Origin: Pseudomonas nunensis
GTDB taxonomy: Bacteria; Pseudomonadota; Gammaproteobacteria; Pseudomonadales; Pseudomonadaceae
Direction of reading: 5' to 3'
Assembly: GCF_024296925.1 (NCBI RefSeq)
Contig: NZ_CP101125.1
Coordinates: 6,450,501-6,514,500, forward strand
Length of the DNA stretch: 64,000 bases
Part shown: positions 29,082 to 40,239 of the stretch, piece by piece
Numbering within the stretch: the stretch's first letter is position 1
Layout: every line of letters begins with the position of its first letter
Translations under genes and position numbers: made by a program
The notes under the pieces: generated by a model
Seen by the model: the letters and a program-made list of their open reading frames with translations, nothing else
The model's database searches: none
Told to the model about the DNA's origin: nothing

Positions 29082-29360
29082 ATGATCGTTAGCTTTAAGT
29101 GTTCTGAGACCGAGTACCTGTTTCGCAACGGTAAGACCCGTATGTGGTCAGCCCTTCTGAATGTCGTGGAACGAAAGCTGACGATGCTTGATGCTGCTGC
29201 CGTTCTGATGGACCTTCGATCACCGCCGGGCAATCGCTTGGAGGCGTTGGAGGGGAGTCGAAAAGGTCAGTACAGCATCCGAATCAACGCTCAATGGCGA
29301 ATTTGCTTTGTATGGGGTCTTAGCGGGCCAGAGAATGTCGAAATCGTCGATTATCACTGA
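29082..29360 (+). CDS. higB: HigB-type toxin (RelE superfamily)
   Basis: A 92-residue toxin of the host-inhibition-of-growth family. It shows the characteristic DLRSPPGNRLEALEG, KGQYSIRINAQWRICF and VEIVDYH blocks. HigB proteins cleave mRNA at the ribosome. The toxin-first order with the antitoxin 8 bases downstream is typical of higBA. The codon use is less GC-rich than in the core genes around it. The ATG overlaps no clear ribosome site, which may keep toxin translation low. Confidence 0.92.
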   Translation: MIVSFKCSETEYLFRNGKTRMWSALLNVVERKLTMLDAAAVLMDLRSPPGNRLEALEGSRKGQYSIRINAQWRICFVWGLSGPENVEIVDYH

Positions 29361-29368
29361 GGTGAGTA

Positions 29369-29674
29369 ATGACTAAAAACGGTATGCGCCCGGTCCACCC
29401 CGGCGAGATCCTCAAAGAGGAATACCTTGAGCCACTGAGCCTTACAGCGGCGGCTTTGGCCAGGGCATTGAGCGTTTCGACACCGACGGTGAATGACATC
29501 GTGCTTCAGCGTCGAGGCGTCAGTGCTGATATGGCTCTCAGATTATCTATCTGCCTGGACACGACTCCCGAGTTCTGGCTGAACCTGCAATCGACTTACG
29601 ATTTACGCAAAGCCGAAATTGAACGAGGAGCTGCGATTCGGGATCAGGTTGAGCGTCTTGCGCACTGCGCCTGA
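29369..29674 (+). CDS. higA: HigA-type antitoxin
   Basis: A 101-residue XRE-family antitoxin. It opens with the HigA signature MRPVHPGEILKEEYLEPL and has a helix-turn-helix at about 27-70 (LARALSVSTPTVNDIVLQRR), followed by TTPEFWLNLQSTYDL. It would neutralise HigB and bind the inverted repeat in front of higB. GAGGTGAGT lies before the ATG. A terminator follows 18 bases after the stop. Confidence 0.93.
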   Translation: MTKNGMRPVHPGEILKEEYLEPLSLTAAALARALSVSTPTVNDIVLQRRGVSADMALRLSICLDTTPEFWLNLQSTYDLRKAEIERGAAIRDQVERLAHCA

Positions 29675-29727: not shown

Positions 29728-30255
29728 TCAGAATGCCTGGAGCATTCGCGATGCACGCTTCCACCAAGGCGCATTCACCGCACGCCTTGGCTGTTCACCC
29801 TCCAACAGCATATGCGGCACATCCTGTAACCGAATCCACGGCTGGTTATTCCAGTGCAGCAAGCTCAACGACATCTCTGGCCAGTTCAGCAGGCTCAATA
29901 TCGGGCGTTCGGTCGAGGTCGGTTGCTGGGCGTCTCTGAGGGCTGGCACCACGTCGTGGGTCAGCCATTCGCGCAGGCCTCGGTATTCGGGGCAGTAGTG
30001 GTAGACCAATAGGGCGTAGACGCCGGATTCGCTGATGAGCAGGGTGTTTTCCACGCTGCCGTGGATGAGCATCTGCGCAGTTTGATGTTGGTCGGGGTCG
30101 AGTTTGCGGACGGCGCGCTCGTCGAGGAACAGGCGCAGGAGTCGGCCCAGGTCACGGGCGCTGAACCAGGGTTGGTTCTCGAGGAGGAGGGCGTGGAGGT
30201 AGAGTTTGTGGCGGGTGAAGATGTGTGGAATTAGATATGTGTCATCGCTATTCAT
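29728..30255 (-). CDS. BRO-N (phage antirepressor-like) domain protein
   Basis: A 175-residue protein. The ATG at 30255 is chosen because AAGGAG lies 9 bases upstream; a longer frame to 30507 runs through the structured leader and is rejected. The BRO amino-terminal domain is visible (LENQPWFSARDLGRLLRLF, then LLISESGVYALLVYHYCPEY and RGLREWLTHDVVPALR). A second, divergent copy of the QPWIRLQDVPHML motif near residue 135 hints at an internal duplication. BRO-N proteins often bind DNA in phages. No other phage gene is near. Function here is unknown. Confidence 0.8.
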   Translation of the reverse strand: MNSDDTYLIPHIFTRHKLYLHALLLENQPWFSARDLGRLLRLFLDERAVRKLDPDQHQTAQMLIHGSVENTLLISESGVYALLVYHYCPEYRGLREWLTHDVVPALRDAQQPTSTERPILSLLNWPEMSLSLLHWNNQPWIRLQDVPHMLLEGEQPRRAVNAPWWKRASRMLQAF

Positions 30256-30280
30256 TGATACAGCTCCTTTTGCTAAAGAG

Positions 30281-30403
30281 GCTGCCGTCAATCGTCGCCA
30301 AACAATTGGGTGGCAGCTGTACGCGGGTTGGCGAACCGGAGCAAAAGGAACCCGGCAGACCCGAAGGTCTCCCACGCACAGCCGCCATGATTCGATGTGG
30401 CGG
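30281..30403 (-). ncRNA. Structured 5' leader of the BRO-N gene (candidate RNA element)
   Basis: Read on the minus strand, the leader ends about 13 bases before the AAGGAG of the BRO-N gene. Helices seen: CCGCCA/TGGCGG (30398-30403 with 30382-30387); an eight-pair closing helix GCUGUGCG (30382-30375) with CGUACAGC (30323-30316), containing one G-U pair. Inside it are AGACC-UUCG-GGUCU (30370-30357) and CGGGUU/AACCCG (30354-30349 with 30329-30324). A last stem GCUGCC/GGCAGC pairs 30317-30312 with 30286-30281. The UUCG tetraloop and the G-U pair exist only on the minus strand, which agrees with the gene orientation. Confidence 0.6.
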
Positions 30404-30554
30404 AGGTGAACCCGCCGTCGATGGTCGTCGTACGCCTTAAGCTTCCAGGTCGCCAAACCCAGTGCTGAACATTCAGCAGAAGGTGAGCTTAGGAGCCTGG
30501 ACTTCACGGCGCTATCGGACGGCGGTGGTGATCTTTGTAGGACGTTGCCGAGAT

Positions 30555-30569
30555 GTTTGCAGGGCTGAG
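30555..30569 (+). repeat. 15-bp repeat TTGTAGGACGTTGCC, right copy
   Basis: Identical to 28457-28471. Together the copies flank the HigBA/BRO-N patch. Confidence 0.6.
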
Positions 30570-30577
30570 GATCAAAA

Positions 30578-30680
30578 GATCGCAGCCTTCGGCAGCTCCT
30601 ACAGGAGGTGGTCTTTACAGTGTGGGAGGGCTGGGTGACCGAGGCGACTCATTCGCGGGCAAGCCTTGCTCCTACAGGGG
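30578..30680. repeat. Two single REP sequences
   Basis: One copy is GATCGCAGCCTTCGGCAGCT plus CCTACAG (30578-30604). A second, TTCGCGGGCAAGCCTTGCTC plus CTACAGGGG (30652-30680), belongs to the type seen at 6611. They do not pair with each other. Confidence 0.75.
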
Positions 30681-40120: not shown

Positions 40121-40164
40121 ACGGTGCGTGGTCGGTGCTGGCTTGTATATTTATTGAGCTGTGA

Positions 40165-40239
40165 TAGTGTCCGGGAACGCCTCAACCCATCGAGGCTCGT
40201 GAAAACCCCGCCTTTTTCTGGCGGGGTTTTGCTTTTTTT
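40165..40239 (+). ncRNA. Short leader or small RNA ending in a terminator, upstream of rnk
   Basis: A possible promoter (TTGTAT 40143, GATAGT 40163 with extended TG) is followed by a small hairpin GCCTC/GAGGC (40179-40195). A strong terminator comes next: AAAACCCCGCC / GGCGGGGTTTT (40203-40231) plus T7. rnk begins only 29 bases later. It could be an attenuated rnk leader or a free small RNA. Confidence 0.5.

Follow-up and report, generated by a model that had tools for sequence, protein, structure and literature searches.

What is the RNA that precedes the BRO-N gene of Pseudomonas nunensis, and how might it act on that gene? The initial annotation of the window (the whole 64,000-nucleotide stretch of chromosome analysed here) described a strongly structured leader at 30281-30403 and suggested a cis-regulatory RNA, a mobile RNA-like repeat or a processed small RNA. 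We ran the cmscan search against Rfam that it had proposed and found a known family: nucleotides 30306-30392 of the minus strand matched RF01695, the C4 antisense RNA, with 88.3 bits against a gathering score of 45. The match was full length (model positions 1-87 of 87), with an E-value of 3.1e-18 in the local search and 4e-16 in the search of the whole window, and the positive control, phage P1, scored 68.8 bits at its annotated c4. The window leader is a C4 antisense RNA. The earlier interpretation as a regulatory RNA is supported, probably, by family, in the form of a processed small RNA that acts on its own leader; the known family, the antisense targets and the position of most copies before genes other than BRO-N had gone unrecognised.

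On the minus strand, the leader folded at -57.9 kcal/mol (z -4.06), and none of 200 shuffled sequences was equally stable. The plus strand was not unusually structured (z -0.82, 41 of 200 shuffles), so the structure was assigned to the strand of the BRO-N gene, in agreement with the original description. The UUCG hairpin and the three-way junction described there were present in the fold and in the Rfam consensus, and the eight-pair helix GCUGUGCG/CGUACAGC with its G-U pair proved to be the middle of a 17-bp closing helix. One described element did not hold: the 6-bp CGGGUU/AACCCG stem was absent from both the minimum-energy fold and the Rfam consensus. Since its AACCC half lies in the closing helix and its CGGGUU half in the second hairpin, this stem would exclude the closing helix.

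The regulatory unit consists of the C4 core, a1 upstream, and a2 and b2 downstream (Table 1; element names follow P1 usage). The b' loop pairs with b2 over 12 nt, a' pairs with a2 over 7 nt, and the BRO-N start codon is located 50 nt downstream of C4. Upstream of the core, a1 is clear and b1 is poor; the c4-a1b1 model matched 30442-30492 weakly, with 18 bits, far below its gathering score of 46.7, and P1 itself obtained 51 bits with this model. A tentative promoter, chosen by eye, combines UAAGCU at 30486-30491 with a poor -35 element at 30509-30514, 17 nt apart, and a strict sigma-70 scan detected no consensus promoter.

Table 1. Parts of the C4 unit and its regulated gene, in positions of the window
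Feature	Position	Strand	Basis
Regulated gene, 175-aa BRO-N protein	29728..30255	-	Pfam Bro-N, 43.4 bits (cut-off 25.6)
C4 antisense RNA core	30306..30392	-	full-length RF01695 match
Closing helix P1, 17 bp, 5' strand	30371..30387	-	fold and Rfam consensus
Closing helix P1, 3' strand, then tRNA-like ACC	30311..30327	-	fold and Rfam consensus
Probable RNase P cut (inferred), directly 5' of GG	30386-30385	-	GG in 35/35 copies
Hairpin 1, UUCG loop	30357..30370	-	fold and Rfam consensus
Hairpin 2, b' in its loop	30335..30356	-	fold and Rfam consensus
b' GUUCCUUUUGCU, antisense to Shine-Dalgarno region, one G-U pair	30340..30351	-	pairing score
a' UCGCCAA	30328..30334	-	pairing score
Target a2 UUGGCGA, 4 nt 3' of C4	30295..30301	-	pairing score
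Target b2 AGCAAAAGGAGC, over Shine-Dalgarno AAGGAG (30264-30269)	30263..30274	-	sequence and pairing score
Target a1 GGUUUGGCGA, 5' of C4	30450..30459	-	pairing score
Hairpin GCUGAAUGUUCAGC, immediately 5' of a1	30464..30477	-	sequence; consensus of 72 relatives
Putative b1 GGAAGCUUAAGG	30435..30446	-	poor match to b'; 4 nt pair for this loop type
Tentative promoter, by eye	30486..30514	-	conserved block in 72 relatives

This unit resembles immI (c4-icd-ant) of P1 in RNA family, in fold and in the order a1, b1 (weak here), C4, a2, b2, gene. In P1 the gene in this place is icd, which starts 51 nt after the annotated C4 end, compared with 50 nt to the first gene here, and in both the hairpin loop pairs with the ribosome-binding site. 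Unlike in P1, the window C4 is chromosomal, occupies a fixed core locus and lacks icd: there is no frame between C4 and the BRO-N gene. The BRO-N protein also differs from P1 Ant1, to which BLASTP found no similarity (best 10.8 bits). It matched 11 PHROG families, nine of them named anti-repressor, and searches of NCBIfam and PADLOC returned no match to it. By eye, the C-terminal part of the protein (about 130-152, SLLHWNNQPWIRLQDVPHML) resembles its N-terminal part (about 17-40, LHALLLENQPWFSARDLGRLL), as if duplicated.

We then compared the locus among 80 relatives of the BRO-N protein, which come from named genomes, are all Pseudomonas and stand among the matches listed (100 confirmed). C4 was located upstream in 74 of the 80. 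The six others were L130 (truncated C4), L149 (contig starting too near), L170 and L174-L176, the last three at another locus and with 57-58% identity. No phage gene cluster surrounds the window C4; its neighbours are comM, HigBA, ubiK, glnK and amtB. Among the 80 listed relatives, GlnK, AmtB and UbiK were neighbours in 73 each and ComM in 74; all four were present in 70, every one of which carried C4. A HigA-like gene was near in 58 and HigB in 15 of the 80. In the window, a pair of HigB-like toxin and HTH_3 antitoxin genes lies at 29082-29674 (+), between the BRO-N gene and comM.

The length of C4 was 86, 87, 88 or 89 nt in 17, 41, 11 and 5 of the 74 relatives, respectively. In 34 of the 69 relatives with an intact gene, the BRO-N frame extended upstream across C4 without a stop; the variation in length indicates that C4 is not conserved as coding sequence, contrary to the translated frame that the initial annotation had named as an argument against an RNA. 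By an automatic rule, the BRO-N frame was intact in 69 of the 74 relatives and not in the other five. Among 24 relatives of the same length, substitutions at codon positions 1, 2 and 3 numbered 591, 279 and 1407, and 1085 codon changes were synonymous versus 683 others.

The pairing between loop and target was retained while both changed. The 75 loci, including the window, fell into 23 loop types, of which one is set apart by an N alone. Loops scored on average 20.2 against their own Shine-Dalgarno region and 13.8 against foreign ones, and 16.0 versus 13.8 against upstream b1; none of 20000 permutations reached the observed preference in either case. By row, the own partner was unbeaten for 9 of the 23 loop types at the Shine-Dalgarno region and for 8 of 23 at b1.

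The initial annotation held an impression that similar leaders recur in Pseudomonas, and this was borne out well beyond the BRO-N locus. The genome of the window (one contig of 7.33 Mb) contained at least 35 C4 matches at E <=0.001, 34 of them over the cut-off. Since 150 of 2124 candidates were scored, further copies may exist in this genome. In the 35 copies, 576 of 595 cells of the closing helix were standard pairs, whereas 2000 column-wise shuffles averaged 539.6 (sd 2.9) and never exceeded 551; 15 of the 17 positions showed two to four pair types. The compensatory change that had been put forward as a decisive check was thus found in the closing helix, as well as between C4 and its targets. 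The GG at the start of the helix was present in all 35 copies and the tRNA-like ACC tail in 33.

Across the genus, at least 275 of 298 sampled genomes, including the window's own, contained a C4 match with 14 candidates scored per genome. When 150 candidates were scored in nine further genomes, chosen because all 14 candidates had matched, we counted 36, 42, 32, 55, 47, 43, 37, 49 and 41 copies; three genomes chosen as low gave 2, 1 and 1, so that the twelve rescored genomes are a non-random sample. Elsewhere in the class, C4 was found in 17 of 273 other genomes, with 1 to 6 matches each (15 candidates scored), and 14 control genomes gave zero matches. By eye, some frames behind the class copies were phage-regulator-like (Rha-, BRO-N- or AntA-like) and others could not be assigned.

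Most of the copies in the window's genome do not precede BRO-N genes. The 35 copies stand before 18 DUF6124 genes, 7 DUF3077 genes, 3 Bro-N genes and 7 genes of other small proteins. Whole-genome Pfam searches showed the association from the side of the genes: over the cut-off, a C4 directly preceded 18 of the 21 DUF6124 genes, 7 of the 8 DUF3077 matches and 3 of the 4 Bro-N genes. A gene that lacks C4 matched both DUF6124 and DUF3077, and the four genes of these three families without C4 gave no match to a model built from the 35 copies. In 34 of the 35 copies the chosen frame begins 43-60 nt after C4; at copy 4612064 the DUF3077 frame begins 42 or 48 nt after it (48 nt was used in the comparisons). 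Sampling from the protein side, with the best match per genome and hence with bias, gave an adjacent C4 at 19 of 30 DUF6124 loci, one of the 30 being the C4-less gene of the window's genome. In two C4 copies, L056:3219-3320 (+) and L039:2847-2960 (-), a frame of 34 or 38 aa lies between C4 and the DUF3077 gene, which begins about 150-160 nt after C4; in its placement this short frame recalls icd of P1.

The small proteins themselves gave few matches. Four of the seven other small proteins were searched against Pfam with none over the cut-off, and the remaining three resembled searched ones in alignment. NCBIfam and PADLOC left six small-protein representatives unmatched. The DUF6124 model was a two-helix hairpin (mean pLDDT 84.5, pTM 0.63); Foldseek found no PDB entry under E 0.001 (best 1.1), and for this reason no function was concluded from the fold. 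Homology between DUF6124 and DUF3077 was considered and rejected, the profile match being weak (E 7e-4, probability 27%), and comparison of either family with the group lacking Pfam matches gave nothing convincing. A recurrent short frame, mostly of 52-57 aa (MxALNPSKIRAxAHRxMALAALxANSSL...), was seen by eye behind C4 at about 14 of 29 genus loci (L012, L014-L017, L019, L020, L024, L025, L029, L030, L033, L034 and L037), and similar frames also occur behind C4 in some predicted viral contigs.

For each of the 35 C4 RNAs, an ungapped score compared pairing with its own leader and pairing with the 34 foreign ones. For the element formed by b' and the Shine-Dalgarno region, the mean was 19.5 for own and 11.3 for foreign leaders, and for the second element (a'-a2) it was 18.1 versus 12.9; the upstream elements gave 19.4 versus 15.5 and 17.9 versus 14.0. 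None of 20000 permutations reached the observed preference for any of the four. The own partner was unbeaten in both directions for 14 of 35 copies at the Shine-Dalgarno element, for 9 of 35 at the other and for 24 of 35 when the two downstream elements were combined, showing that single elements are each not fully private. When the lowest own values were taken as thresholds, so that all own pairs necessarily qualified, both elements were passed by 30 of 1190 foreign pairs (2.5%).

The same preference was found in other genomes of the genus (29 loci with 21 distinct loops) and outside it (26 loci with 25 distinct loops, several from one genome), with 0/20000 permutations for both elements in each set. 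Shared descent should work in the opposite direction, since related copies share loops and targets and so favour foreign pairs. Gapped duplex energies also supported the Shine-Dalgarno element, which beat 10000 of 10000 permutations, and gave a weak preference for a'-a2, reached by 295 of 10000; they were replaced by the ungapped scores because composition and long loops confounded them. The pairing patterns provide good support for the view that each C4 copy is matched to the gene behind it and that the copies form an insulated set.

We therefore read the locus as a chromosomal C4 antisense module that works as in phage P1, with a probability of about 0.83. As we infer from P1, a single transcript would begin upstream of a1, cross C4 and enter the gene, and C4 would be excised from it, most likely by RNase P. 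The freed C4 would bind leaders transcribed afterwards, at a2 through a' and, through b', at b2, which spans the Shine-Dalgarno sequence; this pairing would block translation of BRO-N. The untranslated, C-rich start of the gene would then probably allow Rho to end the transcript. For P1, Biere and others reportedly found in 1992 that C4 acts by translation-coupled termination. In the 35 frames of this genome, the first 90 nt were C-rich and G-poor: the C minus G fraction was 0.234, compared with 0.033 for a background of 183 frames (p 2.7e-17), and 16 of the 35 exceeded the 95th percentile of that background; a C-rich start is common to related genes, so the 35 copies are not independent. Under this reading the gene would be silent by default and would open once C4 runs short. 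In this lineage dozens of such modules are present, with every C4 fitted to the gene behind it.

Complementarity by itself cannot distinguish action in trans from pairing within the leader. The leader might stay uncut and serve as an intramolecular attenuator, in which a ligand, a protein or pausing of the polymerase decides between two alternative states, the C4 fold and the Shine-Dalgarno pairing. It fits this idea that here a single transcript always carries both C4 and its targets and that the upstream a1 and b1, for both of which own means exceeded foreign ones, could compete as partners. We consider it quite unlikely, however, since the C4 of P1 acts as a separate RNA cut by RNase P, according to PMC5320573 (citing Hartmann 1995), and the features of the cut site are retained in nearly all copies as given above (GG, ACC); beyond the helices, no conserved core resembling a ligand pocket was noticed in passing. 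Very unlikely, in our judgement, is a guard against incoming phages, in which chromosomal C4 would silence the antirepressor leaders of phages and the gene behind would matter little. In favour of it, P1 C4 confers superinfection immunity, and the idea was put forward for Acinetobacter baumannii by Weiss and others (PMC5320573); blastn also detected C4-like leaders in records of Pseudomonas phages (32 of 50,697 phage records). When the C4 copies of this genome were combined with 25 leaders from IMG/VR contigs, a small set for which 26 of 96 contigs were hand-picked, both pairing thresholds were reached in 21 of 875 combinations (2.4%), which is no more than among foreign chromosomal pairs. In addition, the match between C4 and the gene behind it is maintained, as is the BRO-N frame.

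The least probable of these readings is that of a decaying prophage relic devoid of present function. BRO-N proteins are typical of phage antirepressors, and the five relatives lacking an intact frame and the one with a truncated C4 would agree with decay. Against it stand the same core neighbours in 70 of the 80 listed relatives, the excess of third-position and synonymous changes in the BRO-N gene and the target pairing retained through 23 loop types. Beyond the single module that works as in P1, the copies may belong to a chromosome-wide Pseudomonas system, derived from a phage immunity switch, of dozens of insulated, self-silenced small-protein genes that co-evolution holds to their individual antisense keys, that open when production or processing of C4 fails, for example on phage take-over, and that act as a standing stock of conflict or dormancy effectors. 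We regard this as a tentative and rather unlikely extension, in which the trigger and the roles of the DUF6124, DUF3077 and BRO-N proteins are speculation.

We also looked for traces of how the copies spread. Among the 35 copies, BLASTN showed shared blocks that begin roughly 175-230 nt upstream of C4 and reach into the gene, and in some pairs of copies the block stops soon past the start codon. DUF6124 proteins, a Bro-N protein and others have a common N-terminus similar to M-K-TPNPP. This pattern fits an exchange of the leader together with the first codons between genes, while five nearly identical DUF3077 copies point to whole units having been duplicated. Close pairs of similar C4 units also occur in L047 (two DUF3077 genes, 5.4 kb) and L054 (two DUF6124 genes, 3.7 kb), which suggests local duplication.

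In sequence records, blastn matched parts of the window leader to 32 phage records, always over less than 80% of its length, and to 31 of 72,556 plasmid records; in one leader-bearing phage record, AlpA- and Rha-like genes adjoin. A single DUF6124 query was found in 1 of 50,697 phage records. An exact C4 pattern matched 96 stretches of predicted viral contigs, which speaks against an exclusively host-borne module and suggests that it may still travel with prophages. Among 25 of these stretches, about 10 had a DUF6124-like frame behind C4, by eye, and about 8 a frame of 52 to 99 aa of another recurrent family; these frames may be prophage genes or host flanks.

The P4 CI RNA is a phage-born small RNA that controls phage genes in its own operon. 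We know of no dispersed chromosomal set of this RNA or of IsrK/AntQ. IsrK/AntQ of a Salmonella prophage is likewise phage-born and tied to phage genes of its own operon, according to the excerpted text of PMC12197685. Both are similar to C4 in this control of phage genes; they are other RNAs, for which no C4 fold is claimed.

Within the C4 family, the closest precedent of the Pseudomonas set is that of the C4-like sRNAs of A. baumannii, of whose Group 1 the excerpted text of PMC5320573 gives 21 similar sequences, 15 of them full length. These too exist as many chromosomal copies per genome and are apparently processed at the start of C4. The excerpted text assigns them no targets, whereas each copy here has a target leader directly downstream, recognised by its matching and co-varying elements, and the Pseudomonas leaders suggest a candidate target logic for the A. 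baumannii RNAs (PMC5320573). The C4 and c4-a1b1 motifs were listed for Proteobacteria and phages by Weinberg et al. 2010 (PMC2864571), and the excerpts of PMC5320573 include Pseudomonadales among the hosts of the C4 motif. The main text of Weinberg et al., as excerpted, contains no Pseudomonas copy numbers, target genes or comparison of own with foreign matching. In searches of the main texts of open-access papers we found neither a link between C4 and DUF6124 or DUF3077 nor any cis target of a chromosomal C4 RNA, and no C4 copy numbers for Pseudomonas; nothing was found there on DUF6124 and almost nothing on DUF3077. The RNA family and the presence of many chromosomal C4-like RNAs per genome (A. 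baumannii) are thus known, and what is unusual here, and different from P1, is the number of insulated copies, about 35 sisters in one genome, before uncharacterised proteins, mostly DUF6124 and DUF3077.

If the reading as a P1-like module is true, 30-55 antisense switches that share a fold, most of them individually keyed, coexist naturally in some Pseudomonas genomes, and such sets would offer a test bed for the separation of duplicated RNA regulators. They would also give a regulatory handle on DUF6124 and DUF3077 and an example of a host taking over a phage lysis-lysogeny switch, and the function of a unit could be tested directly through removal of a single C4.

Three minor observations concern other leaders and intergenic sequence. 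The BRO-N paralogues L180 (in the window's own genome, near 616000) and L174-L176 have no C4, and another conserved structured leader lies upstream of them. It follows a C4-like three-part logic, with ACGTAGA upstream, CTCTACGT in the middle and CGTAGAGG over the Shine-Dalgarno sequence, the elements sitting behind a long branched stem; the leaders of L180 and L175 matched no Rfam family at gathering score, and this leader is possibly an undescribed analogue of C4. Upstream of the window leader, at 30569-30610, lies a short repeat-like stretch, GATCAAAAGATCGCAGCCTTCGGCAGCTCCTACAGG, which is near-identical in several relatives and probably represents a dispersed intergenic repeat. The window also contains the Pseudomonas rnk leader RF01772 at 40133-40238 (+), with 88.9 bits.
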